Shown here: in pieces, positions 2,836-62,511 of the stretch
How positions within the stretch are numbered: position 1 is the first letter of the stretch
How the letters are laid out: the number at the start of each line of letters is the position of its first letter
NCBI GenBank assembly: GCA_963662155.1
Contig: OY759270.1
Location: forward strand, 52,124,471-52,188,470
DNA: 64,000 bases
Reading direction: 5' to 3'
Origin: Lamellibrachia columna
Taxonomy: Eukaryota > Annelida > Polychaeta > Sabellida > Siboglinidae
Program-made: the position numbers and the translations under genes
Notes under the pieces: generated by a model
Databases searched by the model: none
What the model was told of the DNA's origin: nothing
The model's input: the letters and a program-made list of their open reading frames with translations, nothing else

Positions 2836-3192
2836 AAACTGCGCTGTCATGAGACGACATTCGCACAGAACGCCATGACCGGCATAAAGCCTATGAGCTT
2901 GTGTCACTTCTGTGCACGCAAAACGCGAGTGTTTGGGAGCACACCGTGGCTTGCCAAAGACACATGTTGCGTGTGTGGAGAGCTGACAGCAGCGAGAGGA
3001 ATGGGGAAAGAGGCCCAACTGTGCCGTAGACATGCCCCCTTCACCGCGCCCGGCGTGACGCGCTGTGGAATATGTGGCCACAATATCATGGGAGACATGG
3101 CACGCAAGATGACCAATGCAATCTTGTGCAACTTCTGCAACATGGGTTTGGTGTGGAACAAATGCTGTCAACTTGTAACTGATAGTTGCTGA
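2836..3192 (+). CDS. Cys-rich zinc-ribbon-like protein, terminal exon, unknown function
   Basis: The reading frame is open from a splice-acceptor-like site (TTCACTTGTAG, ending at 2835) to a TGA at 3190-3192, giving 118 codons. An ATG lies at 2875. It is unusually GC-rich and Cys-rich for its surroundings, with paired cysteines: C-H-F-C, C-C-V-C-G, C-G-I-C-G-H and C-N-F-C, then a late C-C. This is the spacing of several small zinc-binding knuckles or ribbons. I do not recognise the family. The preceding 71-bp repeats carry the same acceptor and share the first six exon bases. An upstream exon at 334-446 ends in phase 0 and could precede it. It might instead be a single-exon gene starting at 2875, or a captured gene. 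It lies on the strand opposite EED, and if EED has a last exon beyond the left edge this gene would be nested in an EED intron. Confidence 0.6.
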   Translation, partial: KLRCHETTFAQNAMTGIKPMSLCHFCARKTRVFGSTPWLAKDTCCVCGELTAARGMGKEAQLCRRHAPFTAPGVTRCGICGHNIMGDMARKMTNAILCNFCNMGLVWNKCCQLVTDSC

Positions 3193-3939
3193 ATATTGTC
3201 AGTAGATTGCAGCAGCAGGCATTCCTGTATGGGTTATTCGCCGGGCTAGTACTCCTTGCAGTCTTTGTCTTTTGTTGGGAACTCTGCCTACCAATCTTAG
3301 GTGTACTTTTATACTAATTAGAATTTAAGCTGCCAAATCACTGCAGATTCATCATAACAGTCTAGCGCCATCAACCTAACTGAGTATCATCCTCAGTCTA
3401 ACTGAGTATCATCCACTCTGACACCTCCACATCAACTTTGATGAGCTGGAACATCCTTCATCCACTGTCCCTGGCATCTTCTGGCCTTCAGTTCATCGTG
3501 TAACCCTTCAGCAGTTCATCTGTCTCTCCTTGTCAGCGAATCCTGTCCCAGCGCCACATGGTCGCGTTGTCACACACACACACGATGACACTACCGTCCC
3601 TGCTCAGTGTCGTCTGTCGTATTGCCGACATACACTTAGGGTGTGTCAGAACGGTGCACCTGAGATACAATGACAAACAGACAGGTCACAACCCCAGCAC
3701 TGAGGTCAAGTAGAATGTTTGTACCCGAGTCTAATAACATATAAATTTTGTGCTTCTGCCATGTGTGTGTGCGAGTGTGCATGCGTGCATGCATGCATGT
3801 ACATGCAATCACTGTTGTTTTGGTGTGTGCTCTCTAGCTATATTATAAATATACAATACAGATTAATTTTGACCCATAACTACAGTAAATGTGATTACAT
3901 TGTTTACATACATGTGAACATATTAATGTTGTGGTGTGG

Positions 3940-3974
<35 letters not shown>

Positions 3975-5453
3975 TACACAAATAAAACATAGACAATATT
4001 TCGTTAAGATTGTAGACTTATAGTTATAGTGTAATATGTATATATGGAATATAAAGTATTTACATAATGTACACTACATCATGTTCAGTTAAGCCAGACT
4101 ACACTAATGATCTTTCTGGTTTAACACACAGGTAGCAATTTTTTACCGGTTGCTTGTTTTCTGTAAAAATTTATATAACTGACCAATTTTGACATGGCTA
4201 ATCAGTACTTTTATGGTGACTGTTAGCAAGAATTTTTAAAAGCTGTAATATTTATGAATGTTTAATTTCTTACATAATTTTTTATTTACACAAGTTTTTG
4301 TGTGGTACAGAAAAATTCAATATTATAATTTATATTTTAATTTGATAGAAATGTTTGTTTCTGTATAGGAGTGTATACATAGTGCAATGTATTTTGCAAG
4401 AGAGAGTAATCTCTGCTTGATGTGGACCCTGAAATGTTATCAAATACCTCTCTCCGATGTGAGCATAACTGATAAAAGTACTACCCAAGTACCCAGGTAC
4501 TCGAATTTACCAAGTTCAGTTTGTACTTGATTTAGAATGAAACATTACTTACTTGAAATGCTGGAGTGTTTTACACAATGTCTCAAACAACATCAGACTC
4601 TGTGTCTTAATATGGAGTTACACTTAAATTGCATTTATGTATGTTAATGTACTTATTTATCTTTCTCAGTGCCATTACAGTAGCATAGCCACAGTGACCG
4701 TGTACACTCTACAAGTGTATGTATGGCACACTTCTGTATACTTTCTTGCTGTACTTAAAATACAAATAAAACATCATGTTTGTTTACTAACAGTGCAATG
4801 TTGTAAGTTAATATAATATTATTTTATTTTGTTTTAGTGTTTTTATTTGCTGTCTACATCAGTTCTTGGCACCTAGTTTCGCTCTGAACCGCAGCGATGA
4901 GTTCATGAGTAACCACTTCACTAGTGCACGGCTTCTGATGGTGAAAGTATTTGGCAAAATAAGGACCATTCTTTGAATAATTTTACAAAATACTACCTTA
5001 TATCTGATGCGTAGTTATGACAACTATCTATGTCTACAGCATAGGCAGTATAAGCAGTATGGGTGGTCATACCCCTGTTGACGGACCACCCCTCTTTTAC
5101 AGCCAAACCCTTTAATATTGTAATTGGTAAAAAATGGTCAAAGGATCTGTTTCACTGTATCTCCAAATATGTAGAAACATCCAATATTTTGATACCTCTG
5201 TAACTGACCTTTTTGTTACCATTTCATAATAATTACATTGGTGTATTCTGTTTTGCAAATTTACACTTGTGCCTTTACAGTGGTATACAATATATTGGCT
5301 GTCCTGATCATCACGGTTGTGTAATTTCTGCTACTATTATAACTATATATAATAATAATTATATGTTAATGCTCAGGGCCTGGCATGTCATAACCTCCTG
5401 GTACGTGAGTGTGTGTGTGTGTGTGTGCGTGCGTGCGTGTGTAGGAGCCTCAC
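3193..5453. other. non-coding stretch with an (AT)n run; EED last exon searched for and not found
   Basis: Both strands were read for a final EED WD-repeat exon and none was recognised. The stretch holds an (AT) run near 3941-3976, a (GT)/(GTGC) run near 5408-5440, and AT-rich unique sequence. A short duplicated CTAACTGAGTATCATCC occurs near 3376-3414. Confidence 0.5.
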
Positions 5454-8400
5454 CTGACTTGTGCGGAATCTTCCACATCAATGTCCCAGACAAACACACG
5501 GCCCACCTGGTTACCCAGGGCCAGGATCTGTAACACAACAATAGCAAGATTCGTTACACAACTACCCTCAATAGTACAACAATGCACCAGCAACAAGATC
5601 TATAACAAATATCTCATGGTATCCAGCCCTGCAAGAGTGTTTTATATTTCACCCCCTGGTAGACCATTCCAACCCCATCTCAACTTCACATATACATCAC
5701 TGTTTATAGCCAGGTATTCATTTATACAGCTGAGTGAACTGGAGCAATGTGGAGTGAATGAAATTGTCCAAGTTTCAAAATGACAGCAAGAGGACTCAAA
5801 ACCAAGATCTGTAACAAACAGCCTCACCAAATACTAATGTCACAGAAGACACTCAGTGGCTTCAGTGTATAGCTACAAGATGACCACTGGTCATCAGTGG
5901 TCACTACTCACCCTCTGCCAGTAGTCAAGGGAGAAGCGCATGAACCAGATGTCACACTCGCGGTACTCGAACTGGTGTAGGACAGACACAGTCGAGTCTG
6001 TCAGCTTGAGGGGGTAGTCAAGGTCTGTGAGACTGCCTGGCTTCCAGCACACGATGCGGTTCTCACAGGACTGCAGAAGAAGTAGGCATTGATGGAGTAA
6101 GAGACCATGAACAACAGGACTGCAGAAGTAGGCATTGGTGGAGTTATCACAGGACTGCAGAAGTAGGCATTGGTGGTGTTATCACAGGACTGCAGACAGA
6201 AGTAGGCATTGGTGGAGTATGAGAGTATGAACAACACACGATGCAGTTCCAACAGGACTGCAGAAGTAGGCATTGGTGGGGTTCTCACACGACTGCAGAC
6301 AGAAGTAGGCATTGGTGGAGTATGAGAGCACGAACAACACACGATGCAGTTCCAACAGGACTGCAGAAGTAGGCATTGGTGGAGTTCTCACAGGACTGCG
6401 GAAGTAGGCATTGGTGGTGTTATCACAGGACTGCAGACAGAAGTAGGCATTGGTGGAGTATGAGAGTATGAACAACACACGATGCAGTTCCAACAGGACT
6501 GCAGAAGTAGGCATTGGTGGGGTTCTCACACGACTGCAGACAGAAGTAGGCATTGGTGGAGTATGAGAGCACGAACAACACACGATGCAGTTCCAACAGG
6601 ACTGCAGAAGTAGGCATTGGTGGAGTTCTCACAGGACTGCAGACAGAAGTAGGCATTGGTGGAGTTCTCACATGACTGCAGACAGAAGTAGGCATTGGTG
6701 GAGTTCTCACACGATTGCAGACAGAAGTAGGCATTGGTGGAGTTCTCATAGGACTGCAGACAGAAGTACGCGTTGGTGGAGTTCTCGCAGCTAGGCTGAG
6801 GCTGACCACTCGCCATCAACATAACTGGTGATTAGAAACATAGAGTGAGGACAACAAAGAACACGCTGAAACTCACCTTTGAGAGAATGAACTTTTCCAT
6901 CCACTTGAAGCTCACCTTTGAGAGAATGAACTTTCCCATCCATTTGAAGCTCACCTTTAAGGAATGAACTTTCCCATCCATTTGAAGCTCACCTTTGAGA
7001 GAATGAACTTTCCCATCCATTTGAAGCTCACCTTTGAGAGAATGAACTTTCCCATCCATTTGACGCAGTCGACATAGTTACGATGGATGTCACGGGTCGA
7101 GAAGTCTGGGTAATGCTGCGCTACTGTGTCGAACGGACTGCAGAGATACAAACAAGAAAATATCACTACTCATATTGACTGGTACATTGAGTATGAGAAC
7201 AAGGAATGAGGAAACGAGAGAAGCACTCGTGTACTTTGACATCCTGACACGAGACACGGAAAAGAGAGGATGTTAAGACAGCAATGCAAGATAGACAAAC
7301 ATGGAAGGCCATCATGACTGGAAGAACTCACTCGACATAAGCAAGTAAGCTACTCATATTTGAAAATTATATGTGTGAATTGAAGGCACCATTACATTTT
7401 ATTTTAACATCCTTTATATTAGTATCTTCTATGTAATTGAATTAATTATATACAAATTACACAATTGACTGCAACCAAAGCTTATTCAAGTAATACACTA
7501 CTTTAATCAAAACCTGGGAGAAATTGCAAGCTTAGTAGGCTATCATTGAAGTGTCTGACAGAGACCTACCTACTGGTCTTGGCCGGGTCATACTTAATAG
7601 GCCATCACTGAAGTGCCTGACAGAGACCTACCTACTGGTCTTGGCCGGGTCATACTTAATAGGCCATCATTCAAATGCCTGACAGAGACCTACCTAATGG
7701 TCTTGGCCGGGTCATACTTAATAGGCCATCACTGAAGTGCCTGACAGAGACCTACCTACTGGTGTTGGCTGGGTCATACTTAGTAGACCATCGCTGAAGT
7801 GCCTGACAGAGACCTACCTACTGGTCTTGGCCGGGTCATACTGATACGAGCTCTCAATAGCGTCCGTGATACACTTATGGTTAGCACACCATATTTTGAG
7901 CGAGTGGTCCATGCCACAAGATGCAATCAGAGTCCCCTCGAGGTTGAAATCCTAACAATTAACAATATTATTATTATTGACGGCGAGTTATCTTATACTA
8001 GCAACATTGACAGCAAAAAAAAATATACTAAAGCCGCAAACGCAGGAAGAACACATCAATGAGTCAAATCTGATACCCATATTCAATAAAAAATAACCTT
8101 TCAAGTGCTATCCCATCAGCAGTGTAAGACAATAAGGGTGTACCTCACTGAGCACAATAAGTAACAGGACATACCTCACTGAGCACAATAAGTAACAGAA
8201 CATACCTCACTGAGCACAATAAGTAACAGAACATACCTCACTGAGCACAATAAGTAACAGGACATACCTCACTGAGCACAATAAGTAACAGAACATACCT
8301 CACTGAGCACAATAAGTAACAGAACATACCCCACTGAGCACAATAAGTAACAGGGCATACCCCACTGAGTACAATAAGTAACAGGACATACCTTACTGAG

Positions 8401-11400
8401 CACAATAAGTAACAGGACATACCTCACTGAGCACAATAAGTAACAGAACATACCTCACTGAGCACAATAAGTAACAGAACATACCTCACTGAGCACAATA
8501 AGTAACAGGACATACCTCACTGAGCACAATAAGTAACAGAACATACCTCACTGAGCACAATAAGTAACAGAACATACCTCACTGAGCACAATAAGTAACA
8601 GAACATACCCCACTGAGCACAATAAGTAACATGATATACCCCACCGAGTACAATAAGTAACAGGACATACCCCACCGAGTACAATAAGTAACAGGACATA
8701 CCCCACCGAGTACAATAAGTAACAGGACATATCCCACCGAGTACAATAAGTAACGGGGCATACCCCACCGAGTACAATAAGTAACAGGACATACCCCACC
8801 GAGTACAATAAGTAACAGGACATATCCCACCGAGTACAATAAGTAACAGGACATATCCCATCGAGTACAATAAGTAACAGGACATATCCCACCGAGTACA
8901 ATAAGTAACAGGACATACCCCATCGAGTACAATAAGTAACAGGACATACCCCACCGAGTACAATAAGTAACAGGACATACCCCACCGAGTACAATAAGTA
9001 ACAGGACATATCCCACCGAGTACAATAAGTAACAGGACATACCCCACCGAGTACAATAAGTAACAGGGCGTACCCCACCGAGTACAATAAGTAACAGGAC
9101 ATACCCCACCGAGTACAATAAGTAACAGGGCGTACCCCACCGAGTACAATAAGTAACAGGACATACCCCACCGAGTACAATAAGTAACAGGACATATCCC
9201 ATCGAGTACAATAAGTAACAGGACATATCCCACCGAGTAAAATAAGTAACAGGACATATCCCACCGAGTACAATAAGTAACAGGACATATCCCACCGAGT
9301 ACAATAAGTAACAGGGCATACCCCACCGAGTACAATAAGTAACAGGACATATCCCACCGAGTACAATAAGTAACAGGACATACCACTCCGAGTACAATAA
9401 GTAACAGGACATATCCCACTGAGTACAATAAGTAACAGGACATACCCCACTGAGTACAATAAGTAACAGGACATACCACTCCGAGTACAATAAGTAACAG
9501 GACATACCACTCCGAGTACAATAAGTAACAGGACATACCCCACCGAGTACAATAAGTAACAGGGCGTACCCCACCGAGTACAATAAGTAACAGGGCGTAC
9601 CCCACCGAGTACAATAAGTAACAGGACATACCCCACCGAGTACAATAAGTAACAGGACATACCCCACCGAGTACAATAAGTAACAGGGCGTACCCCACCG
9701 AGTACAATAAGTAACAGGACATACCCCACCGAGTACAATAAGTAACAGGACATATCCCATCGAGTACAATAAGTAACAAGACATATCCCACCGAGTAAAA
9801 TAAGTAACAGGACATACCCCACCGAGTACAATAAGTAACAGGACATATCCCACCGAGTACAATAAGTAACAAGACATATCCCACCGAGTAAAATAAGTAA
9901 CAGGACATATCCCATCGAGTACAATAAGTAACAGGACATACCCCACTGAGTATAATAAGTAACAGGACATACCCAACCGAGTACAATAAGTAACAGGACA
10001 TACCCCACTGAGTACAATAAGTAACAGGACATACCACTCCGAGTACAATAAGTAACAGGACATACCGCTCCGAGTACAATAAGTAACAGGACATACCGCT
10101 CCGAGTACAATAAGTAACAGGACATATCCCACCGAGTACAATAAGTAACAGGACATACCCCACCGAGTACAATAAGTAACAGGACATACCCCACCGAGTA
10201 CAATAAGTAACAGGACATACCTCACTGAGTACAATAAGTAACAGGACATACCCCACCGAGTACAATAAGTAACAGGACATATCCCACCGAGTACAATAAG
10301 TAACAGGACATACCTCACTGAGTACAATAAGTAACAGGACATACCCCACCGAGTACAATAAGTAACAGGACATACCTCACTGAGTACAATAAGTAACAGG
10401 ACATACCCCACCGAGTACAATAAGTAACAGGACATATCCCACCGAGTACAATAAGTAACAGGACATACCTCACTGAGTACAATAAGTAACAGGACATACC
10501 CCACCGAGTACAATAAGTAACAGGGCATACCCCACCGAGTACAATAAGTAACAGGACATACCCCACTGAGTACAATAAGTAACAGGACATACCTCACTGA
10601 GTACAATAAGTAACAGGACATACCCCACTGAGTACTTCATCTCGATGACCGTCAACGCCACCAAATATAGCGATGCAAACATCTGTTTTGATGTTCCATA
10701 GTCGCAGGGCATGATCTGTAAAAATCATGTCATGTTTATTTTTCTTCCTCCACAATAATAGTATTCTACATTTGCCATTTATTTTTCAATCTTCATTCAC
10801 AAAGGAAGCCTACAATTACAGGATTATAGAAACAGTTGAGTCTGTTTGTGTAAAGCTAATATGTTGTAATCATTATCGAACCTACACATGTCATTGGCCG
10901 GGACTAAGGAAGTAAACTCTGAGTGGTTCTAGTGGATCAATTATACACATTCCCCGTGCTTCAATGTGTGTCACTAACATTCACTGCTGGGGATTAGGTA
11001 GTGTTTTCATGGTCAACGGGTAAATTAAAATTACACATTAATCAAAATAGATTTTCCAATCACATAAGAAACCTGCTGCATGTCAAGCAAGTCAGAATGT
11101 GGGTTAACCAGATTTGTAGTTGCCATACCTAGTAATGATATGAATGATTAAACAACCTTGACCTACAACAACCTTGACCCACCTTTACTGACGGACAGCA
11201 GCAAGTTGCCATCTTTGGGGTGGACCTTTAGTTCGTTGATAGCGTTGCCGTGGCCTACGAAGTGCTACAAAAAGAAACGGTTGCATGCCCATTTTCCAAC
11301 GTATATTTAACAATTCTTGACCCATTATACATGTTTACTCACTTTGACATCATTTAAAGCTACAGTCAAGTTTAGGGTCCAAGTCCGCATTCTAAGAGAG

Positions 11401-14400
11401 GCATGATAATGCTGTGTTTCCATATCTGCCACCAGGAAAGCCACTAAACAAAAAGCAGTCGACACACCCACTGCACGAGGAATGCCACCGAAGCAACAGT
11501 GTGGCAGCCGCGCTGCCTGTACGCAGTTCATATAGCTTACTAAAAGTCAACTAGTGTCAATGTTTATGATGTTTAATTGTCATACACTGTTGAATGTTGA
11601 ACTGAATAAAATACATGTATTATATTATGGAATAGATGACAAGTCGACAATAGTTTGCTATGGTGTACATTCTGGTCCTTTCTTGAGTCATTAATAAAAA
11701 ATTGGATTAATAAAAATTTGTTGGAAGACTTCACAAAGGCTAAGTAGAAACAGAATTTGATGTACTTGTAACCCTGAACAGTTTTGCGACATTTTACTCT
11801 TTGTGTTGTTTGTCTTTCCGTCTTGTAGCCCTCACCTTGACGTTCTGCATGCTGACAGGACTGATGATACGGATGATACCACGGGAACCTGCGGCCGCCA
11901 ACAGGGGCTGACCAGTGGCGCCATCCTGTGTCCATGCACATGTGTAGAAGTTCTCCTCAGAGTCAGCATCTGTATATGCCTGCAGCAGTTTGATCTTGCC
12001 TCCGTCTTCACATTCATATACCGTCACCTGTGAGAGATAGTGTCAGTTACAAACATCAAGGACAACTGCATTCAAAGGTATAAAGGCTGATTGTTGTCTG
12101 CCCTGGTCCACCCTGATTGTGGTCCGCCCTGGTCCTCCCTGACTGTGGTCTGCCTGGTCCACCATTTAAGTGCTGATTGTGGTCCGCCCTGGTCCACCAT
12201 TTAAGTGCTGATTGTGGTCTGCCCTGGTCCACCATTTAAGTGCTGATTGTGGTCCGCCCTGGTCCACCATTTAAGTGCTGATTGTGGTCTGCCCTGGTCC
12301 ACCATTTAAGTGCTGATTGTGGTCTGCCCTGGTCCACCATTTAAGTGCTGATTGTGGTCCGCCCTGGTCCACCAATTAAGTGCTGATTGTGGTCCGCCCT
12401 GGTCCACCATTTAAGTGCTGATTGTGGTCTGCCCTGGTCCACCATTTAAGTGCTGATTGTGGTCCGCCCTGGTCCACCATTTAAGTGCTGATTGTGGTCT
12501 GCCCTGGTCCACCATTTAAGTGCTGATTGTGGTCCGCCCTGGTCCACCATTTAAGTGCTGATTGTGGTCCGCCCTGGTCCACCATTTAAGTGCTGATTGT
12601 GGTCTGCCCTGGTCCACCATTTAAGTGCTGATTGTGGTCTGCCCTGGTCCACCATTTAAGTGCTGATCGTGGTCCGCCCTGGTCCACCATTTAAGTGCTG
12701 ATCGTGGTCCGCCCTGGTCCACCATTTAAGTGCTGATCGTGGTCCGCCCTGGTCCACCATTTAAGTGCTGATCGTGGTCTGCCCAGGTCCACCATTTAAG
12801 TGCTGATCGTGGTCTGCCCTGGTCCACCATTTAAGTGCTGATCGTGGTCCGCCCTGGTCCACCATTTAAGTGCTGATTGTGGTCCGCCCTGGTCCACCAT
12901 TTAAGTGCTGATTGTGGTCCGCCCTGGTCCACCATTTAAGTGCTGATTGTGGTCCGCCCTGGTCCACCATTTAAGTGCTGATTGTGGTCCGCCCTGGTCC
13001 ACCATTTAAGTGCTGATTGTGGTCCGCCCTGGTCCACCATTTAAGTGCTGATTGTGGTCCGCCCTGGTCCACCATTTAAGTGCTGATTGTGGTCCGCCCT
13101 GGTCCACCATTTAAGTGCTGATTGTGGTCCGCCCTGGTCCACCATTTAAGTGCTGATTGTGGTCTGTCCTGGTCCACCATTTAAGTGCTGATTGTGGTCC
13201 GCCCTGGTCCACCATTTAAGTGCTGATCGTGGTCCGCCCTGGTCCACCACTTAAGTTGGCCCTCATTCAGCATGCAATATGCAAATATGCGATTCGACTC
13301 AAATCACTCAAATAAAAAATAAATTGTGGTCAATTAAAACATATTTGGACAGTCACGCTGTTTGAATAAATATAGTTTATACTATATAACTGATCACTTT
13401 ATAGTACAATAATAACATAACTGACAACTTTATACTATATAACTGATCACTTTATCACAAGTATTGCTGTTTCGTTATCATTAACACATGAATCAATGAA
13501 ATCGTTTGCTAGAAAATTTAGCATGACCAACGACTTTTGTTGCCCTGTCATCTAACATCTACGTCTCATAAGTGAATTTACCATCTGATTATCTCTCCAA
13601 ATGTGTTTAATTGTACTGTGCAACAAGAACACAAAATAATACACACACCCTGTTGCTGCCGACTGTTGCAAATATAAGCGGATCACCGTCTCTTGTGTTA
13701 TAGTTGAACTGTACGCCAAACAGAGGTTGTCCATGATCCTCCTGACAAAGAAAATAACATATATGTTTGTTACTTTGTGCCTTCTTGTACGTGCAAGTCT
13801 GCTGGAACACAAGCCATTGTCAAACCACATTAACTACTGGCATGATACAGATGCTTTCTACTTTGACACTTTGGGTAGAAACTCTTTTTTTAGTATATAA
13901 AAATCATAAAGTATTACACAAGTAACAATGATGTATAAACTTCTACGACACAGCCAGTTTAAGTAGTTTATTGTAAATTATTGATGGGAACAGCAAGACT
14001 GCAAAAATCTGTATTCGGGTCAAATTGAGAACATAACATTTAAAAGAACATCTAACAATGAATAATAACTCTAGTAGACATTAATTACAAGGCATATGGG
14101 TAATTAGTTATATACAGTTTGTTTGTTTCAAGAAAAATTAAATTATGTTTTCTGTTGCACATTGATAAGCAATATTTAGGGAAACCGTTATTTCATCAGT
14201 CAGTGGCATATAATGCGTTTTGCCACAAAACATTTTTTATGTGATTGTTGTTGTTATATTGATTATGTTATTTGATGTAGACCTGTTTTGCAGATAGACG
14301 CTTCTTTGCAACAAATTATGCACACACAAGAGTGAGTATGTCTGTGAGTACCTTGAGGTAGTTTGTACACTTGTACTGGAGTCTACACTTGTTATATTTG

Positions 14401-17400
14401 CCCTTGCCTCGTCTACGTCTCCCTCCCGTCTGTGTCGGGGTCTCACTGCGAGAACTGTCGTCTGCTATGCTACTGTTTGTCACGCTTAGAGAGTCATCCT
14501 GTAACCATGACAAAAGTTGTGTAACCATGACAACAATTATGTAACCATGTCAACACTGTCTTTTTACACACAACAAAATCTTTTAAGAACATTTTTGCCC
14601 AGGTCTGGGGTAATAGTACTATGTAACAGTAATTATTAAATATTCAAGTAATAGTAATATATGGAACAGAACACAGTGTAATAGTAATAGAGCTATTACT
14701 TTTGTATTACAATTGAATATTTAAATCACATATGAAACTTCTGTTTCATTAGGTTGCTATGCGTAAATATCAACCTGTGTGTTTGTGTTTAGCAATCTCC
14801 ATGTAAGCTGCCTTCACATACCAGACATCAAAGGAGTCTTCACTTGGGATTAATGCTGGCTTCTTCTGAGTTAGCTCCAACAGCCCATATAGACAATCAA
14901 GGCTGAGAGGCCATGTACTGTACATACAGCATTGAATGGTCCTTTGGAGCCAGCTCCCCTAGCCAACTATCGTTTTTTCACACAAGTCAATAGAGGGTCC
15001 CAAATTCATGGATGATCACTTATTGGATAAGGGTTCCAGCACTAAGTTGATTGTCTTAAAAAACCATCCTCAACTGATTTAGCCTATCACGAATCCGGTT
15101 CGTTGATATCCTAATGTGTAGTGTGTGAATAGCTAAAGTAATATTTGCAGTCAGTTTAATTAAAAAGTGCATACTTTTGTTCAAATCATGGAAAGAATTC
15201 ACTTAAGTCAAAGGCTCAAAATAGCAGATATCCAAAACAGTAAACACTTTATGGGGTCAAGGCTGGACATGACTTCCACCCTCTCAACGATCACGACAAA
15301 GTTATGAAATTTCACCAAGGGCGAAATTCATGTTTGTTTCTTAAATTTTCACTTCAATAAATTCTGGATCAAGTATTAGATAATTTAATAGTTTGCCTGA
15401 TTATTTCACAAAAACTACAAAAAATTTTGATAAACGAGCTAGCATGTTGTAGTGGATACCAGTGAACATAGCTTAAATTTTGACGTTTCAGCTCATATCA
15501 GATTGGATAGTGTAAAAAAGAGACGAACAAATCATAGATAATTGTTTGAATAAGGAATTCAACCTATATTTGTGGCAAGCCATACAGACAATCTTTTTTC
15601 ATTTTACCATTTTGTTCCAATTATTTAAACTTTTTATAACAACCAGGCTTGACATAACGCTTTATAAAACACATACACATATACTTGTATTGAATATATA
15701 ACATTAATGTAGTCAATTTGTTCTCATTATATTTAACACATTTTAATTATTTCTACTTTTATAACAAGACTGGCTTGCCATACATCTACCACAAAGGGCG
15801 ATTATTGTCACGTGCCCAAGAACGAGACACGTGTCAGCAGATGCTCAATAATAATGTCTGATAAGCATGCAAAGTCGGTTTTTATCAAGGTATGTATATC
15901 ATAAACGTGTTCCATGTTTTATTATATATCAAAATATATTTTGCTCAGACAAAACTCTGTATCGTTATTGTCGTAAACAAACACTGTGACTCTAACGCGA
16001 TATCAAGCGAGATTTCAAGCTTGAAAACTGCACCGGTAACTATACCACAATTCAGTGGGTGGCAACGATCACCAGCCGCAACATCTGGCATTATCAGATC
16101 AAATTTAGTGCGACTTGGCGCTAATCCCCTTTGCGTTCACACTAGCAATTTGAACCGGAGTAAAACTAAACCGGTGTGAAACAACCTCAAGGAGGTGGAG
16201 TAGTTTAATCCGGTTTAACTCACTGATCCGGTTTAGATTTTGTAGTGCGAACGCTCCACGGGAGCGAAACTGGCTTCGCACCGGATTAAAACTGCTAGTG
16301 TGAACGGGGTGTAGGAGTAGGGGAAGGCAGTGTTAGTTGAGCCACTGGGTTAGTTGAGCCACCCATGTTTCCCAGGTAACTACAGCAGCGACAGTTACAT
16401 GGTATTACCCAGTGATTGAACATGTTATTAGAACACGATTGACGTATAATAGGTTACATTTGTCACAATGACCAGAACATGTGAGTTGAAAGTACGTTTT
16501 TTATGTTTTTCTAAACTTTTGGTAATTGTGATTAATGTGTGCTGGTGTGTGTAAACTATCAATGCACGTGACCAGACTTTATTATTTTATTTGTGCACTT
16601 ACAAATGGTTTAACTATGCACAGAGAAGAAGATTATTTACATCACTTCGCACTCACATTAATGAGGCTAGTTGAGCCACCCAAGGCCCAAGGGAGGGTTA
16701 GTTGAGCAGCGGATAAAGAACGATGATGAGTATTCTTTACCTCAAAATACATCAAGCAATTCATTTTTCCGAGCAAATTGGGACATCAGATAGCTACAAG
16801 GCAACATATTAGCAGTTAGTTACATTGGTTGCGATTGGCCTATAAGTCTATATAAATTGTGTCGACTTATTAATTAAGCATGTAGACTTGTCAGAGACAT
16901 ATTGTACCCATTGGGTAGATGTGTTGGCTGAGATGTTATGAATTTTTTGCACAAGGCCTAAATAAATTATACAAAATAAAGAATTTACGCAACTTACATA
17001 ACACTGTGGCTCAACTTACCCCACACCACGTGTTAGCTGAGCCAGCTTACCAACCCTATTTGAATCAGCTATATAGACCTTATGAGACCTTATGACAATT
17101 CTGATTGCAGGATCCAGGTGGTTCCTCCATGATCAGATCTTTTTCAGAATCGAATATTAGGGGTTCATAATTTCCGGTTGCAGTAGTCATTGTTAAAGGA
17201 GATTCATAGTCATATATTATTACTTGGGGAGACCAGAATTTGTCTAGATGGTTTTTTAATGAGTTTATTGATGTAGCTTGTATTACAGAGTGTGGTAGAC
17301 TATTCCATGGTTATATTATATATAATTATCTATGCATGCTAGATATATTATCTTTGTATAAAATGATCTACTAATAATCATAGTTTATGTGAGCAAAAAC

Positions 17401-17905
17401 AATTTAGACTTATGAATATGATTGCGCCCTAGACATCAAAAAGAATGAAAACTGGCTCAACTAACACTGTCACTGACTGGCTTCCCCTACTGCATAGTCA
17501 CGTGATAGTGCATGTCCCCAAGGCAGACTCGTCCGCCCCACTCTTGGTCTCTGGGGCGGACATCCACGGCGGGATTTTGGTAAGCGCCGATTTGGGCTTT
17601 CCGTAGCCAAATGGCTGCAGAGCTGATAACTTAAGTTTTAAATGTGTCAATGACATATGACAAAGCTTGGTCTACAATTTATATTTCGCGGGCTTCGCGC
17701 ATCAAACTTCAAAGCCAAAGTAAACATGATAAACGTAATCGCAAAAGGCTTTATTATCCCACACTATAAGAAATAATTCTACAACACAATATGTAGGACA
17801 TACTATTTCATCTCCTGAAATGTCATTGTGAGCACAGTCTTCTGATTTCAATACCGATATGCGACTTTTCTTTCCCGACACAATAACATCCTCACTGTCC
17901 GACAT
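5454..17905 (-). CDS. EED: Polycomb protein EED (WD40 subunit of PRC2), ten exons, 3' end not found
   Basis: EED is the H3K27me3-reading WD40 scaffold of Polycomb repressive complex 2 in the nucleus. Exons read on the minus strand: 17905-17804, 14498-14352, 13741-13649, 12027-11836, 11264-11183, 10715-10624, 7951-7818, 7137-7032, 6070-5912, 5527-5454. All have AG/GT borders and all phases join. The first exon begins [13 protein letters not shown] and holds an acidic SGDE segment, as in vertebrate EED. Exon 2 has a basic [12 protein letters not shown] stretch. Diagnostic WD-repeat segments include [88 protein letters not shown] and LALGNQVG. The aromatic cage residues expected from vertebrate EED can be placed (F in QPLFGVQF, Y in FYTCAW, W in CDIWFM). 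About 400 residues are covered. The final exon (last WD repeat, roughly 40 aa in vertebrates) was not seen between 1 and 5453. Introns 6, 7 and 8 are largely tandem arrays built from the neighbouring splice junctions. Confidence 0.95.
6062..6800 (-). repeat. 39-bp and composite minisatellite derived from the EED exon 9 acceptor
   Basis: On the minus strand each unit reads CAATGCCTACTTCTGTCTGCAG then TCCTGTGAGAAC. The first part is the polypyrimidine tract and AG of the exon 9 acceptor; the second is the first 12 bases of exon 9 (Ser-Cys-Glu-Asn). Some units also carry a diverged copy of further exon bases (GCATCGTGTG) and a linker CATACTCCACC. About 17 to 18 AG sites with a pyrimidine tract are present. 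The real exon begins at 6070. A composite block of about 240 bp is itself duplicated (compare 6182-6345 with 6422-6590). Confidence 0.95.
6877..7060 (-). repeat. 39-bp minisatellite derived from the EED exon 8 donor, about 5 copies
   Basis: On the minus strand the unit contains AAATGGATGGGAAAGTTC, then ATTCTCTCAAAG|GTGAGCTTC. The part before the bar is the last ~30 bases of exon 8 ([10 protein letters not shown]) and the rest is its donor. The exon ends at 7032 at the first copy. The unit is 39 nt (13 codons), so use of a downstream copy's donor would add in-frame [13 protein letters not shown] blocks. One copy, near 6955, has a deletion that breaks the frame. Confidence 0.95.
7138..7530. other. 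unique part of EED intron 7
   Basis: This AT-rich intronic sequence lies between the exon 8 acceptor and the donor-derived array of exon 7. I saw no gene or element. Confidence 0.6.
7531..7840 (-). repeat. 62-bp minisatellite derived from the EED exon 7 donor, about 5 copies
   Basis: On the minus strand each unit contains GTATGACCCGGCCAAGACCA, then GTAG|GTAGGTCTCTGTCAGG. This reproduces the last ~24 bases of exon 7 (YDPAKTS) and its donor, followed by an intronic linker. The exon ends at 7818. Copies differ by a few substitutions (for example CTACTGGTGTTGGCTGGG near 7756). Confidence 0.95.
8139..10630 (-). repeat. 31-bp minisatellite derived from the EED exon 6 donor, about 80 copies
   Basis: On the minus strand the unit reads TACTCGGTGGGGTATGTCC, then TGTTACTTATTG. 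Exon 6 itself ends GTACTCAGTGGG|GTATGTCC at 10624, so the last ~11 exon bases and the donor are part of the unit. Units with GGGGTATGT or GAGGTATGT keep a good donor; units with GGGATATGT have lost the GT. Exon-proximal units share CTCAGTG with the exon, central ones carry CTCGGTG, and distal ones (8139-8640) carry GTGCTCAGTG and TTCTGTTAC. This gradient fits growth outward from the junction. The unit has no stop codon in any minus-strand frame. Confidence 0.97.
10716..11182. other. EED intron 5, no other feature seen
   Basis: This is AT-rich unique intron sequence between exons 5 and 6. No array overlaps its borders. Confidence 0.6.
11265..11835. other. EED intron 4, no other feature seen
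   Basis: Unique AT-rich intron. The open frames crossing it have no recognisable content. Confidence 0.6.
12090..13256. repeat. 35-bp minisatellite in EED intron 3, about 33 copies
   Basis: The unit contains GCCCTGGTCCACCATTTAAG, then TGCTGATTGTGGTCC. Main variants are C/T in GGTCC/GGTCT and ATTGT/ATCGT. The first units, near 12090-12170, are truncated (no CATTTAAG). Unlike the arrays in introns 6 to 8, this one does not reach either exon border. Confidence 0.95.
13257..13648. other. EED intron 3, remainder
   Basis: AT-rich, with a duplicated TATACTATATAACTGATCAC near 13376-13450. No gene seen. Confidence 0.5.
13742..14351. other. EED intron 2, no other feature seen
   Basis: AT-rich unique sequence with no recognised element. 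Confidence 0.5.
15060..15450. repeat. dispersed repeat family A, copy 1 (EED intron 1)
   Basis: The segment with CCTCAACTGATTTAGCCT, CACTTTATGGGGTCAAGGCT and TTTCACCAAGGGCGAAATTC is matched in the same order at 20633-21050, and more weakly near 37860-38080. This is an interspersed repeat of unknown class; I saw no coding capacity. Confidence 0.85.
16124..16312. mobile_element. short MITE with CGTTCACACTAGC inverted termini
   Basis: The left end, CCCCTTTGCGTTCACACTAGC, matches the reverse complement of the right end GCTAGTGTGAACGGGGTG. The ~190-bp interior has several CCGG-centred inverted motifs (AACCGGAGTAAAACTAAACC and relatives). It is non-coding and is abutted by the next element. Confidence 0.75.
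16320..17487. mobile_element. non-autonomous DNA transposon with GGGGAAGsCAGT termini and TA target duplication
   Basis: The left terminus GGGGAAGGCAGTGTTAGTTG is an inverted match of the right terminus CAACTAACACTGTCACTGAC followed by TGGCTTCCCC. The flanking dinucleotide is TA on both sides. The motif TTAGTTGAGCCA recurs internally (near 16332, 16349, 16668, 16690 and, inverted, 17007). The interior is ~1.17 kb without a transposase frame. A TA duplication fits the Tc1/mariner-like group or another TA-targeting family; the class is inferred. Confidence 0.8.
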
Positions 17906-21652: not shown

Positions 21653-37467
<15,815 letters not shown>

Positions 37468-51100: not shown

Positions 51101-53494
51101 ATCAATTGTCACTTCTGACAAAATTACGCCATGTTTGGATAAAAATCAAGCAATTATATAATATTAATTTGAAAATCAATTAATTGGTATATTTATAGAG
51201 ACAGTAAGCAGGCTTCATTGGTTCGCAGTGTTCTGGAAATCTAGTGTACATAATCTATGATTTATGAAGTGTCAAAATTAACCTATAATTAAATTATGTG
51301 ACTGGTTTTCAACTTTTCAGGCAGGGCATTGTGTTGATTTGGCTGTCAAACAAATAATGATGAGACAAGCTGAAGTGTTCCATAATATGTCTACATATGC
51401 TTTGTGCCATAACTTGATATAAAATTGGACACTTTCTCAGAAAAAGTTTCCCTATTTGGGATCATGCCTCAGTTAGCCTTCCTGGTGTGTTAGATATGAA
51501 TGTAGGGCATAGTAAGTTTGGATATAGGATGTTTTAAAAATTTCATATCTCACATAAGTGCGTTTGAGAATTGCCATGTTTGCTGGTAGAAACTGTTGAC
51601 TGTAACTGGATTTTTAGATGATTTTAATAGGCGGAAGAATTTTTGGCAATTTTTTCACCACAAGGCACGAGTGCGTAGTAATTCATGCAGAAATTTTTAA
51701 CATTGACGGGTATGGCACGTTCAGCCATTTTAAAAGAGTTAGAAATATGTGATTTTGACAAAACTCGACCAGCATGTCAATAAGATGATGACAACAGCAG
51801 GTCAGAAGTTTTGATGGTCCTGTTTTCTTATGATCATGCAAAACGTTAACATGGTCACCAATGTAACTGTAGGCTGAAACGTAGCCTCGATTATCCAGGC
51901 TCCGTGCTGTGGCGCCACCGGTTGCTGCACATATTATCGTCTGGATGCAACGTGTACTTTTCACTTTGACGGAAATTATGTATACACCCAGATTCTTGGT
52001 GCATACATAATTAGCTAATTATGGTGCTGTCCGAGCATTTGGTTAATTCATAAAATAAGAGTTGAACTTTTATCAGTTAATGCGATGAAATTCGAATTAA
52101 CTTTAAACCTTGATTATATTGATTGACACAACTGTCAGAATGAAAAGTTAAATCAAGCAAACAAAATGTTTAGTGTAGAATCTCTATAATGACGCTGATT
52201 GGTTGCTAATGCTTTGTGGGAACGCCTACACAAAATGTGGTGTCAGTGGGTAACAACGATACCACGCCTCTGAGGTCAGACTCTTCTCGGTGAATTCATG
52301 AAAGCGAGTGAGAGTCGGATAAGCGAGACTGGCTAAAACTAGGCACTTCACTTTTTTAACTGTTTTGATCGTAAAATCATTTTATGTAGTACACATGATA
52401 TATTATACTATGATTATTCTAACATATCAGGCCGCTGAAATGTGTTTTAATGAAGTAGAAGCAATTTTTATTTAAATTGTTTAATTTTTACAAAAGTTGA
52501 CCTCGGTGTTCAGTGCAAATTTTTAATAGCTCTAGGATATTTCAGTTAATTGTTGCGAATCATAAGATCAGAGCTTCTAATCGGAGTGCACTACTCCCCA
52601 TAAAGTTGGTGTCCATGGATACAAGTGAATTGTCGACCTATAATTATTTTGCATGCGTGGTATTCAGTACCATCATACATAAATTTGTAAACATTGTCAC
52701 TGATGATGTATAATATGTATATATTAAAACAAACGTAAACTTGAAAACACTCATGCGAGTGCGCGCGCGCGTGCACACACACACACATATATATAAAATA
52801 CTGGAAGCACATTGAGGATTAATCAGTCTGGTGGTTGAATGTTTCAGCTTGTATACTGGATCAAGAAAAACATCATCCTGGTTGCGACAGTATCATCTGT
52901 GTTCCTTGGCTCCATCATCGGGTTAGCCGGACGTTTATTCAACCCGAGTGAAGAAACCATCATACTGGTTGCCTTTCCTGGAGAAATACTTATGAGAATG
53001 TTAAATATGATTGTCCTGCCCATGATAGCATCCAGTATTATAACAGGTCAGTGGCGTCTTCCTGTCTTCTCCTATGGCATGGTCACCTCACGTGTAAGTT
53101 CAACATGTCTGGCACTGCATGGTTTCGTTCACTGCTGCGTGTCTGATGATACATACAACTTTAATTTTGAAACACCTAACCATGTACTGACATCCATTTG
53201 CAAAGCAAGCCTTTATCTAAGCACAGTTCTCATTGTAACATTTCTGTCACTCGTATATTTACCATTGCAGCCTTGGCACAGCTTAAGGCACACCAATGTG
53301 GTCACGTAGGCACTCGTGCACTTGTCTATTACATGGCCACCACTTGCATCGCAGCTAGTATTGGCGTTTCATGTGTGCAGTTCATCCAACCTGGCGTAAC
53401 CCCAGACACAGAACACGTTGATCTTCATGAACATGAACTGACTCCAATGGATACAGTTTTTGACTTTTTTAGGTAGTTTTTGACTTTTTTAGTA

Positions 53495-57100: not shown

Positions 57101-60100
57101 GGGGGAGTTATTTTATATGTTAAAGAATCTATTCAGGCATATGAAATAAAATTAGAAAGGGTGCTCTTTGGTGCAAAATAGTTTCAGGAAATAAAAAATT
57201 AGCTATTGGATTAGTTTACCAAAGTCCAAACATAAACGAAGAGGATAACACAAAAATACAAAATGCTATAAAGGAAGTTAGTAAAGGGAATGTATCATAA
57301 TAGGAGATTTTAACCATGGACACATACAATGGAAATCTCTAGAGAGTACAGGGGGTGAGGACCAACAATTTCTATTTTTATTCAGGATAGCTTCCCTACT
57401 CAGCACGTGCTTGAACCAACCAGGGGAGAAAATGTATTAGATTGGGTAACAGTGACCACAATCAAATACATTGTGACATCAATGTAAAATCAGAAAGTAA
57501 AAATAAAAAAACGTATAGGAGAAACTTCCACAAAGGTAACTATAAAGATATGAGAAAATACTTACCAAAGCTAGATTGGAATAACATGCTGATGAATAAG
57601 ACCGCAATTGAATGTTGGAATATTCTAAAATATGAAATTGAGAGTATCATCGATAAATTTGTTCCCTTGAAAAAACCAAGAAAACGGTGTAGAAAGAAAC
57701 ACTTGTCAAAAGAAGCTATAAGAAAAATAATGTTTAAGCAAACTATGTGGAGGGTATATAGGGTGACCAGAAAGACTAAGCAAATTCCAAAGAGGCACTT
57801 AACCTAGCTACAGCTGAAATTAAAAAATCTAAATAAAAAAAAATTGGCAGGTAATATAAAAAATGACAGCAAGAGTTTCTATGCTTATGTAAGAAGTAAA
57901 CAGAAAATTCGAGATAAGGTCGGACCACTGGAAAACAACAGGGGAAACATAATTTCAGACGGGTTTCAAATGGCAGAGGTCCTGAATGAGTATTTCAGCT
58001 CAGTTTTTACCACTGAAGATATCAGCTCACTTCCAGTTCCATTTACTAAATTTGAGGGCAATAAATCAGAACATTTAGGGCAGTTATTTGTAACTCCTGA
58101 AATGATAGCAAAGAAAATTAAGAATATGAAAGATAATAAATCACCTGGAGTTGATGGGATACCATCAAAACTGCTTAAGGAAATTGTTGAGCAAATTAGT
58201 ACACCACTTGCAAAATTGTTTAACTTGTCACTAGAAGAAGGAATAGTTCCTTCAGAATGGAAAGAAGCAAATATTACGCCACTATTGAAGAAGGAATCGA
58301 GGAGCAAGCCAGAAAATTATAGACCAGTGAGTTTAACATCAGTTGTATGTAAATTACTCGAAACATTAATCAGAGACCACATGGTGGAATTCCTTGTAAA
58401 ACATAAATTAATAAATACATCTCAACATGGGTTCCTAAAAGCAAGGTCATGTCACCAACCTCTTATGTTTTTTTGCAGAAATTACAAAGTGGGTAGATGA
58501 CGGGTCACCAGTGGATGTTGTGTACTTAGATTTTCAGAAAGCTTTCGATAAAATGCCCCATCAAAGATTGTTACTTAAACTAAAAGCCCATGGTATAGGT
58601 AATGATGTAATCAACTGGATAGAAATGTGGCTTACACACAGAAGACAGAGAGTAATAGTAGATGGTGAGATTTCAAACTGGAAATCTGTTTTGAGTGGGG
58701 TACCACAGGGATCAGTATTAGGCCCTATACTGTTTTTAATATATATAAATGATTTGGAAGAAGACATATCTAGCAAAGTACTCAAACATACATGTTAAGT
58801 TTCAGAAATGCCAATCCAGGAGATTTAGACATAAATCGGAGTGTCTCGGAAAAACGGGGATTTATACGTAAATCGGGTAGTCTCGGAAAATTAGGGACTT
58901 GTATGTAAATCGGGTCTAAGAGTACAAAATATTACAAAAAGAATACTTTCCATGACAGTAACAACCATGTTTTATTATCACCAATCACCAACAGTTCATA
59001 TATGATACAAAAGCACATTATATATATATTCACCAATAACTCATCAGCTCTAGACATCTGGCACAGAAGAATAACGCCCATGTCGATCTAACGTAGACCA
59101 TGCAGGAAGACTTTACCATGCATGACAGGCACACGCCTATAATTTATGAAAACCCTCACACATATATCACAAATCTACCAGAGAAGAATAACGTCTATGT
59201 CGATCTCACAGAGAATGTACAACAGACGCAAGCCTACACATTTACTGGTGAACCTTCACATAATCCCATGTCGCAACCTTGGCCAACTTGAGAAGATCCT
59301 TCTCTGGCACAAAGAATAGCAAGGATCGTCTGTGTTGATTTTGCATGATAGCAGTGCACGCAGGGTGTCGTTGCCGAGCTGTGACCGAGAGTCAGTGTTG
59401 ACTCAGAAAATCATACTCGAGTCAGCCGGAAATAAAACCCAATTAGGCCATGCCGAGTTCGGAAAATAACATAGAAAATTTTTTTTATTTGGTTTCACTG
59501 AAAATCCAGGAGATTGGTTCTCCTTTCCAGGAGATCAGGAGATTTGATGGATTTCCAGGAATCTCCTGGCGAATGCAGGAGACTTAACATGTATGCTCAA
59601 ATTTGCAGATGACACAAAAGTATTCAGAAAGGTTACTAATGATACAGATAAACAAAGTTTACAGGATGATCTAGATAAATTAGTTAAATGGTCAGAAAAA
59701 TGGCAAATGTTATTCAGTTTTGGGAAGTGCAAATGTATACACATAGGACATGGAAACATGGACGAAGAATATAAAATGGGGGATGCTGTACTAGGTAGAA
59801 CCACACAAGAAAAGGACTTAGGAGTAACATTTAGTGCTGACATGAAAGTTTCAGAGCAATGTGGGATTGCTGCTTCGAAAGGAAATCAAATTCTAGGGCT
59901 AATTAGGAGAACTATCACGTATAAAGAAAAACAGCTAATTGTACCCCTGTACAAAGCAATAGTTAGACCACATTTGGAATATTGTATTCAGGCATGGAGG
60001 CCGTATCGTAAAAAGGACATAGACAAGCAAGAAAGAATACAACGAAGAGCAACTAAAATGATTCCAGAATTGAGAGACCTTAGTTACAAAAGTCGCTTAT

Positions 60101-61550
60101 TACAATGTGGCTTGACAACACTAGAGACCAGGAGACTAAGAGGAGACCAAATAGAAGTGTTTAAAATAATGAACGGTTATGAGGATGTTGATAGGAATGT
60201 GTTCTTCAAACTTAAAAAAGGCAGTAGAACCAGAGGACACAAAGCAGCATTAGTTAAGGAGCAGTGTAGGTTGGACATGAGAAAGAACTCTTTCTCACAG
60301 AGGGTGATAAATGAATGGAACAAACTACCAAATGATTGTGTTAATGCTAGTAGTGTGAATATGTTTAAAAATAGAATTGACAGATATTTGATAAGGGCGG
60401 GCTACACATAGATGAGAAAATTGTTGGACTCTCGATAAGCCAATGGCTTCCTTGTCCACTTGCCATCTGGAACTTGTTGCTTGGGATGGCAATCTTTTTA
60501 AATCTTGTTAAATACTAGATCATGACTGTGCCGTGGCAGTGTTGCCACTGTCGTGCCGTATTCAAAATATACCAGCGTCATTCATCAAAAGAAGCGCTGT
60601 AACATGCACCGTCCTAAGTGTCACGTGTTTATTTTGACCATGTTGAGCCAAAAAGGAAACTTTATTGTTGTCTTGAAATTTGGGAAGGGAAACCACTGCT
60701 GAAGTGGTGCACGGTTGATCGCACGGTTGTGCTCGATCGCATTCCAAATGACCAATCAGGTAGTCTTATTATCTTATTACTGTGACATATCCATCCAGAT
60801 AATGCACGGATGCCTCGTTCTGAGAATTGTATTTTAAACATACATTTGCGTACGTTGAGTGGATATCGGCACGGCTAGCCATTGTATATATATATATATA
60901 AATTATGTGTGTACATGTATATACGTGTGTGTGTGTGTGTACATGTGTGTATATATATTTATTTATATATATATATTATGTATATATATACGTATATTAA
61001 AATAACAGATGACAGATGTTGACTTTAGAATGTACATGACTGATAATAGAACAGTGTTGGTTTCCACACATAAAAACAAATTAACATGGTCATAAGTTGA
61101 GAACTGACTGTCATTTCATTTATCATTTCGAGATAGCAGTCACCATATTTGTATTATTGTAAAGTAAATGGGAACACAAACACTGTTAAAAATGGATCCA
61201 ATTAAAACAATGTTTGCATTATAAGATCCGCTGTTTAAATTTAAATTGTAGTAGTAGTAGAGTAGTGTTTTAATAAACTAGTATGCAAAAACATAATTGA
61301 TTTAATGCATTTTAGCCAAAGGTCATGTAGTGTGATTATAGTTGTTATTGCGGTTTGTACAGGAACCTGATTCCAAGTAATCTGATGACGGCCTGCTTCC
61401 AACGAGAAGCTACTGTCTTCAAGCATATAAGACAACCACGCACAGCCTACAAGAAACCCGATCCCGGCTGGGTGTTCTTGAAAGATGATATGATCTTTAT
61501 TGATAGTGAAGTTCGCGAACTCCGAAGAATTGATGGGATGAATGTTATTG
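48105..61550 (+). CDS. excitatory amino-acid transporter (EAAT/SLC1 family), first four coding exons, continues past the window
   Basis: SLC1 proteins couple Na+, H+ and K+ gradients to glutamate/aspartate uptake at the plasma membrane. Exons: 48105-48179, 52848-53046, 53271-53472, 61363-61550, all GT-AG and in phase (0, 1, 2, then 1). A basic cytosolic N-terminus (YHIKLYKKYVRSKSIKP) is followed by TM1 (IILVATVSSVFLGSIIGLA), TM2 with the family signature region (FPGEILMRMLNMIVLPMIAS), TM3 (ALVYYMATTCIAASIGV) and the extracellular FIQPG motif. The fourth exon begins RNLIPSNLMTACFQR, matching the family's RN-x-PxNLxxACF segment, and ends DGMNVIG. There are two in-frame ATGs (48105 and 48108). 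The paralogue cannot be assigned from this part. The substrate- and ion-binding C-terminal core lies beyond the right edge. Intron 1 holds a foldback element; intron 3 holds two LINEs and two DNA transposons. Confidence 0.92.
48240..51880. mobile_element. 3.6-kb foldback element with ~0.85-kb inverted arms, in EAAT intron 1
   Basis: The left arm (48240-49090) is the inverted repeat of the right arm (~51010-51880): AGCCTACTGTTACATT against AATGTAACTGTAGGCT, then TAACGTTTTGCATGAT, GATCATGCAAAACGTTA, the ATAGCTGAAAACCAGTCACA region and the GTGACTGCTTTCATG region all match in order. Direct partial copies of the right terminal ~250 bp also sit inside (49110-49290 and 49630-49885). The interior matches the element at 24466-26738. 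No transposase frame was seen. Confidence 0.85.
51881..52847. other. EAAT intron 1, remainder
   Basis: AT-rich. It holds a GCGC/ACAC/ATAT compound microsatellite near 52755-52796 just before the exon 2 acceptor. No gene seen. Confidence 0.5.
53454..53495 (+). repeat. 20-bp tandem duplication across the EAAT exon 3 donor
   Basis: AGTTTTTGACTTTTTTAGGT is followed at once by AGTTTTTGACTTTTTTAGTA. The exon ends at 53472 within the first copy (TTTTTTAG|GTAGTT). The second copy keeps the exon-like bases but has TA where the GT would be. An AT/GT microsatellite follows. Confidence 0.9.
54043..54112. repeat. (AT)n microsatellite
   Basis: About 34 AT units within the minus-strand LINE copy. Confidence 0.97.
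54912..56156. mobile_element. 1245-bp DNA transposon with CAGGGATG termini and 6-bp target duplication
   Basis: It starts CAGGGATGAGATTTTTC and ends GTCACATCCCTG, an inverted match of the outer eight bases and several further in. TATATT is duplicated at 54906-54911 and 56157-56162, and removing the insert restores the LINE alignment. The CAGGG ending is typical of hAT elements, which make 8-bp duplications, so the 6-bp duplication is a mismatch to that class. No transposase frame. Confidence 0.85.
56625..60500 (+). mobile_element. CR1/L2-like LINE, near full length, plus strand, with a nested DNA transposon
   Basis: Order: the end of an ORF1 with an esterase-like D-x-x-H block (MYMKDGLHLSGKG, ~56665-56710); endonuclease start (IDPHIIGITESWANTDITDA at 56977) with GGGVILYV; an RT linker; then RT: DNKSPGVDGIPSKLL (58133), PENYRPVSLTSVVCKLLE (58312), VVYLDFQKAFDKMPHQRL (58517), SGVPQGSVLGPILFLIYIND (58694). 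After the insertion come the catalytic FADDTKVF (59600), KDLGVTFS, the C-terminal YKAIVRPHLEYCIQAW (59950) and RRATKMIPELRDLSY. Stops or frameshifts near 57180, 57300, 57807 and 58470 make it inactive. An AAACTA-type junction with the inverted copy lies near 56600-56625. Confidence 0.9.
58787..59595. mobile_element. 809-bp DNA transposon with perfect 14-bp TIRs and 6-bp target duplication, inside LINE RT
   Basis: It starts CATACATGTTAAGT and ends ACTTAACATGTATG, a perfect inverted repeat. CTCAAA is duplicated at 58781-58786 and 59596-59601. Excision in silico joins the RT frame exactly between the palm segment and FADD. Internal near-repeats contain CAGGAGATTT and TCCAGGAGAT motifs. It has no coding capacity beyond a 63-aa open frame without recognisable content. 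Confidence 0.93.
60501..61362. other. EAAT intron 3, remainder before exon 4
   Basis: AT-rich, with (AT)/(GT) microsatellite runs near 60884-60980 and short TAG repeats near 61248-61262. No gene seen. Confidence 0.5.
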
Positions 61551-62258: not shown

Positions 62259-62511
62259 GGTGTCGCTTGGGTCTAAACACATTTTATTTTCTTATTTCAT
62301 TATCACTGAACCTACAGAGCTGAAATTTTCAGATATTGTAAGTCCAGGTAACAGTAATGCTGTAAAATATTTTCAGAAAGTTTCGTACAGATTTTCCCAC
62401 GGTATGCAGCCATCTTGGATTAAATGTTGCGTGTGACTTATATCAATAACCATTGGATTTAGAGGACTCAAATTTTTTTTACATCTGAATGTATTTTTTC
62501 ATTATGAAATT

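Follow-up and report, generated by a model that had tools for sequence, protein, structure and literature searches.

How does a gene come to carry four of its splice junctions inside tandem repeats, and how would one junction be chosen among dozens of near-identical copies? Both questions are raised by EED, a gene on the minus strand of a 64,000-nucleotide stretch (the window) of the genome of the siboglinid annelid Lamellibrachia columna (assembly GCA_963662155.1, contig OY759270.1, positions 52,124,471 to 52,188,470). In the span studied, which runs from the start of exon 6 to the end of exon 10 (5454-10715), three donors (exons 6, 7 and 8) and one acceptor (exon 9) each form the exon-edge copy of a tandem array of their own, with the junctions at 10623|10624, 7817|7818, 7031|7032 and 6070|6071, respectively. 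Such an arrangement had been proposed in a preliminary description of the window, and mapping of the GT-AG borders, Tandem Repeats Finder (TRF) and checks of the repeat register now agree on it. The arrangement is real, and repetition of a nearly identical unit 80 or 5 times is not the work of chance; whether chance put the arrays at junctions is less clear.

The exon map was obtained by mapping the EED protein of Ridgeia piscesae (P0001) to the window, which gave 11 exons. Spliced at GT-AG borders, these form an open frame of 1308 nt including the stop, encoding 435 amino acids; 417 of the 435 residues (96%) are identical to those of the Ridgeia protein and 18 differ. Full-length homology places the product in the EED / ESC Polycomb WD40 family. 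A 310-residue part matches EED in the PDB with an E value of 3e-153, and the top match to this query among 789 proteins is again that of R. piscesae, itself a siboglinid annelid (97% over the 310 residues), followed by Paralvinella at 78%. These matches point to a vestimentiferan tubeworm distinct from Ridgeia, and away from amphioxus. The introns around exons 6 to 9 measure 467, 2672, 680, 961 and 384 nt.

The unit of each array reaches into the neighboring exon, by 12 nt at exon 6, 25 nt at exon 7, about 35 nt at exon 8 and 12-26 nt at exon 9, a few mismatches included. Unit lengths had earlier been given as 31, 62, 39 and 39 bp; the first three stand, but the array at exon 9 is compound (39, 35 and 103 bp), with TRF rows of 39, 103 and 241 bp covering 6112/6123-6790. 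Intron 6 consists of array sequence for 92.9% of its length and intron 8 for 92%, the latter figure counting in positions 6071-6111 on the strength of two repeat families, so that both are almost entirely junction-derived, as first described; for intron 7 the share is 42%. The units of the four arrays are pairwise unrelated, with no blastn alignment longer than 8 nt (7-nt words), and therefore go back to four separate founders, in line with the independent births claimed for them. In the intron 6 array, whose number of copies may be off through assembly, as may those of the other arrays, adjacent copies resemble each other more closely (0.946 at lag 1) than copies far apart do (0.896 at lag 60). 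The ten exon-nearest copies are the closest to the junction copy (0.961 versus 0.914-0.939 elsewhere), and internal subfamilies are present. The arrays at the exon 8 donor (6867-7063) and the exon 9 acceptor (6071-6790), which flank one intron, share a unit length of 39 nt, and in both cases the unit has an open frame.

A precedent in amphioxus, mentioned in the preliminary description, is borne out by the literature (PMC3087553; PMC3902484). There, 'mirages' received their name in Adh3, with globin genes adding more examples (PMC3087553) and PGBD5 and troponin C still others (PMC3902484); the units given in these two papers are 10-72 bp in Adh3, 150-160 bp in the globins and 60 and 108 bp in PGBD5. 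According to the same reports, splicing is apparently unaffected by the duplicated sites. As in EED, the tandem duplications described in Adh3, troponin C, BflGb6, BflGb9 and PGBD5 span a border, either donor or acceptor, and many but not all units keep their GT or AG. The EED units hold the end of the exon, the splice site and the start of the intron (in reverse at the exon 9 acceptor), the presumed junction is the exon-edge copy with the remaining copies intronic, and unit lengths of 31-103 bp lie within the 10-160 bp reported. The EED arrays are thus probably minisatellites of the mirage type, that is, short tandem duplications that straddled an exon-intron border and expanded toward the intron. 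EED differs from the amphioxus cases in its host, an annelid and not a cephalochordate; in the crowding of four unrelated arrays, each at its own junction, into 5.3 kb of a single gene; in copy number, with about 80 at the exon 6 donor versus 6 and 3 reported for two BflGb6 haplotypes (PMC3087553); and in being known from one sequence alone.

Which came first, the exon edge or the array, can be judged from the residues encoded by the exonic parts of the units. Conservation was taken as identity to the window EED across 120 of the 789 homologues, those listed. The exon 6 part, VLS, has identities of 0.99-1.0, and the next residue, G, just 0.06; five of the ten residues of the exon 8 part are at 1.0, and six of the eight in the exon 9 part (SCENRIVC) at 0.98-1.0. 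Coding sequence therefore predates the arrays at exons 6, 8 and 9, so that the junction preceded the array there and seeded the repeat. The same order is likely at exon 7, though less firmly.

Most of the additional copies would qualify as decoy splice sites. At exon 6, 60 of 79 decoy copies keep GT and 19 have AT; at exon 7, all four decoys repeat the 9-mer of the presumed donor without change; GT is kept by all four decoys at exon 8 (three identical 9-mers and one with T at +6); and 13 of 15 decoys at exon 9 keep AG. As judged by duplex energy, U1 pairing would be slightly stronger for 17 of the 81 copies of the exon 6 array than for the presumed site. When intact decoys were spliced in silico, a premature stop resulted in 79 of 81 cases (60/60 at exon 6, 4/4 at exon 7, 3/4 at exon 8 and 12/13 at exon 9), the two in-frame outcomes being an exon 8 decoy that adds 13 amino acids and an exon 9 decoy that adds 28. 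At all four junctions, the presumed site is the choice that yields the shortest exon. We infer that the presumed sites are used and that the spliceosome tolerates the decoys. Position +1 of the 31-bp unit (8141-10635) is among its three most variable, with A for G in 19 of 79 decoy copies, which could reflect drift or removal of harmful decoys.

The comparison of junctions with random positions called for earlier was made within the window, on EED and on a control gene encoding a VWA protein, the latter supported by 85% identity over the whole 562-residue query to a protein (P0122) encoded on a 2.7-kb contig and assigned to VWA_2 by Pfam. These tests are post hoc and cover one window and two genes; microsatellites (period <10) were excluded, overlapping TRF rows were merged, and arrays under a TRF score of 98 entered only in an added short set. 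The two ways of counting gave different answers. By coverage, EED shows no junction excess: repeats take in 5 of its 20 junctions at a score of 12-18, or 4 of 20 at a score of at least 20, compared with 35-37% of 674 positions drawn at random from the gene and 20-22% of 3000 window positions. By placement of the founder unit, a junction is spanned by four of the five strong EED arrays (P 2e-5 to 5e-5, or 1.4e-4 when three short arrays are included) and by 4 of the 12 intronic arrays of EED and the VWA gene together (P 9e-4, or 4.5e-4 when four 33-bp VWA arrays are counted once). In the VWA gene, none of 12 junctions lies in an array (scores 2.5-6.0) and none of seven intronic arrays is at a junction. 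A junction bias is therefore moderately supported. The stronger proposal of a mechanism that starts duplications at exon-intron borders stays a hypothesis, given that the excess of four in five comes from one gene, the VWA gene has none in seven, and coverage shows no excess.

How mirage-type arrays could persist is suggested by exon definition, in which splice sites nearest each other across an exon would be paired; it is expected at exons 6-9 because the flanking introns are at least 384 nt long. A duplication across an exon-intron border would leave the mRNA unchanged if the exon-nearest copy were used. Extra copies would then lie on the far side of the used site and be ignored, so unequal exchange could add or remove units freely, and the arrays would persist as near-neutral sequence, growing and shrinking like ordinary minisatellites. 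Carranza and colleagues (PMC9225289) describe a preference, when the introns on either side are long, for the splice sites separated by the least exon sequence; in all five of their minigenes with two identical strong 5' sites and 365-nt introns, only the upstream site was used. Such a rule would favor the presumed EED sites, which give the shortest exons, and tolerance of the decoys.

Several points weigh against this account. The same study (PMC9225289) describes the upstream 5' site preference as a tendency in the human genome (60% of near-equal-strength events), reports exon skipping when sites were weakened in larger constructs, and finds upstream preference at acceptors reduced, not reversed, so the exon 9 array is the least explained of the four. 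The exonic part of the exon 7 unit, YDPAKTS, is weakly conserved across the homologues listed (0.03-0.57). The use of the presumed splice sites is deduced from protein homology rather than from RNA. Finally, neutral persistence alone does not predict that four of five EED arrays are at junctions, and birth bias alone does not predict that none of the seven VWA arrays is.

Two alternatives concern what the arrays are to the junctions. An older intronic repeat might have supplied the splice site, with the exon edge captured from the repeat; this would likewise put the junction inside a unit, and it is more tenable at exon 7, with its weakly conserved exonic part. However, the exonic parts of the units at exons 6, 8 and 9 encode residues common to distant animals and are thus older than the arrays, making an array-first origin very improbable. 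The decoys might alternatively serve regulated splicing, producing EED variants or non-productive mRNA, as their intact sites and the two in-frame results at exons 8 and 9 could indicate. Yet nearly all intact decoys lead to a premature stop, those of exon 6 are not uniformly preserved, as 19 of 79 lack GT, and amphioxus mirages are reported as seeming not to disturb regular splicing (PMC3087553); we consider a regulatory role improbable.

In a genome rich in intronic minisatellites, arrays could overlap the EED borders by coincidence, with no bias of birth or retention. Minisatellites do make up 17.6% of the window (19 arrays hand-picked from the TRF table), EED junctions show no excess of coverage over random EED positions, and the VWA gene has seven arrays with none of its 12 junctions affected. 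Placement counted per array (four of five in EED, P 2e-5 to 1.4e-4; 4 of 12 in both genes, P 4.5e-4 to 9e-4) argues against coincidence, as do two short arrays, at the exon 5 donor and the exon 2 acceptor, that also adjoin junctions within 1 nt; we regard it as unlikely, with an appreciable chance of being correct nonetheless. Faulty assembly or decay of this copy of the gene might also be suspected, since tandem arrays are difficult to assemble and PMC3087553 refers, in a supplementary legend, to an aberrantly assembled amphioxus mirage. But the open frame of 435 codons in 11 GT-AG exons, the four different units, and the subfamilies and decay of similarity with distance in the 31-bp array make this explanation hardly credible.

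Table 1. Positions in the window of the junction arrays, EED exons, further EED repeats and the VWA control gene
Feature	Position	Strand	Details
31-bp minisatellite	8141..10635	-	TRF score 4080, 80.5 copies; unit of the last 12 nt of exon 6, donor and intron start
62-bp minisatellite	7531..7842	-	TRF 5.0 copies including the junction; unit with 25 nt of exon 7 and donor TAG|GTAGGT
39-bp minisatellite (one copy 38 bp)	6867..7063	-	TRF 5.1 copies including the junction; about 35 nt of exon 8 and donor AAG|GTGAGC
Compound 39/35/103-bp minisatellite, intron 8	6071..6790	-	Unit of intron 8 3' end, acceptor CAG| and 12-26 nt of exon 9
EED coding region	3533..17905	-	11 exons; tblastn to Ridgeia P0001 and GT-AG splicing
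EED exons 1-3	17804-17905, 14352-14498, 13649-13741	-	
EED exons 4-5	11836-12027, 11183-11264	-	
EED exon 6	10624..10715	-	tblastn to Ridgeia P0001, 31/31 residues; GT-AG, frame; last exon base 10624
EED exon 7	7818..7951	-	tblastn to Ridgeia P0001; GT-AG, frame
EED exon 8	7032..7137	-	tblastn to Ridgeia P0001; GT-AG, frame
EED exon 9	5912..6070	-	tblastn to Ridgeia P0001; GT-AG, frame
EED exons 10-11	5454-5527, 3533-3659	-	
Two 16-bp tandem copies	11151..11182	-	Start exactly at donor GT of exon 5; coverage-test score 9.5
2.8 20-bp tandem copies	14500..14555	-	TRF score 84; adjoin exon 2 acceptor, 1 nt off; coverage-test score 19.5
35-bp minisatellite, intron 3	12087..13256	-	32 copies; about 60 nt from exon 4 acceptor
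VWA control gene	21653..37467	+	7 exons, 12 junctions, 7 intronic arrays
VWA gene exons 1-4	21653-21689, 23517-23596, 31190-31492, 32046-32152	+	
VWA gene exons 5-7	32549-33089, 36273-36482, 36940-37467	+	

Elsewhere in EED, the two 16-bp copies at the exon 5 donor are a possible young case of a junction array. The 35-bp array of intron 3 was considered as a fifth junction array and ruled out by its distance from the exon 4 acceptor. A copy of the exon 10 acceptor at 5802-5816 (15 nt, 93%, 281 nt away) was dismissed because, roughly estimated, chance alone would give as good a match, and a 24-nt piece of the 31-bp unit had no match in viral contigs.

Outside EED, a 71-bp array of 20 copies at 1411-2841 on the plus strand ends in TTCACTTGTAG|AAACTG before a cysteine-rich open reading frame (ORF; region 2836-3189), for which one homologue was found (P0121, 69%). 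This could be a fifth junction array, at the acceptor of a neighboring convergent gene. We did not accept it as such (TTGTAG|AAACTG, score 118.5): the acceptor is unproven because the sole homologue found starts at an internal Met of the ORF at 2875-3189, and the array was left out of every junction test. Intron 2 of the VWA gene holds four arrays whose 33-bp units appear similar on visual inspection (24115-24465, 26739-27104, 27612-28086 and 28551-29512), and its intron 5 holds a perfect 84-bp tandem pair at 34340-34499 (TRF 1.9 copies, 100%), apparently very recent. On the plus strand, open frames at 57415-60408 and 61772-62433 resemble, by eye from motifs, reverse transcriptase fragments of the long interspersed nuclear element (LINE) type, and an exon-like ORF at 52839-53306 has a weak, sub-gathering match to the sodium:dicarboxylate symporter family (PF00375). 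An Rfam scan gave no match at gathering scores, a tRNA search found none, and of nine pattern matches in a search for EED relatives in GTDB contigs none was confirmed.

Related repeats have been described beyond amphioxus. Human genes in segmental duplications are reported to have internal tandem repeats at exon-intron boundaries (PMC2812944); like those of EED, they include minisatellites with units of about 30 bp and are tied to altered introns, but they differ from one recent paralogue to another and may alter the transcript, whereas the EED borders are where the conserved protein expects them. In potato, a duplication crossing an exon-intron boundary has been reported (PMC4974935). The model of Rogers (as cited in PMC3087553) resembles EED in invoking tandem duplication across an intron-exon border, although a new intron was detected there, while the EED copies enlarge introns; relative to the Ridgeia protein, no extra coding exon was seen in EED, the intron positions of relatives being outside this comparison. 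Earthworm metallothionein genes also have large minisatellite arrays in annelid introns, but the available text describes these inside intron 1 and mentions no splice site in the unit (PMC12783039). The available text of the Ridgeia genome paper, which deals with repeats and intron lengths, does not mention splice-site repeats (PMC9921365), and no annelid mirage or junction minisatellite was among the literature matches listed, most subscription papers lying outside the search. The kind of array is already known from amphioxus, its annelid host is new as far as the literature was searched, and the occurrence of four such arrays in a single gene is striking; these comparisons suggest that the pattern can arise more than once. 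The annelid host is the more surprising part of the finding.

If the finding holds, a feature named in amphioxus occurs in an annelid as well, and a general cause is therefore needed. Our tentative suggestion, itself rather unlikely on present evidence, is that the birth of minisatellites at splice junctions is recurrent in long-intron animal genes rather than peculiar to cephalochordates. Exon borders would be prone to duplication, perhaps in connection with transcription or splicing, and exon definition would protect the process. The four EED arrays are in addition a natural experiment in which the context of a junction is repeated up to 80 times; since the local context is repeated with each copy, the choice among copies would rest largely on position. 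By our reasoning, the copy closest to the exon should be used under exon definition, whether it is a donor or an acceptor, and the opposite copy under intron definition, whereas a rule favoring the first-transcribed copy would fit the donors but not the exon 9 acceptor. Annotation pipelines are likely to stumble over such introns. Were recurrent birth at junctions to prove true, vestimentiferan genomes would carry junction arrays at many genes, with introns becoming junction-derived DNA, and would show, as experiments of nature, how a splice site is chosen when dozens of almost identical ones are on offer.

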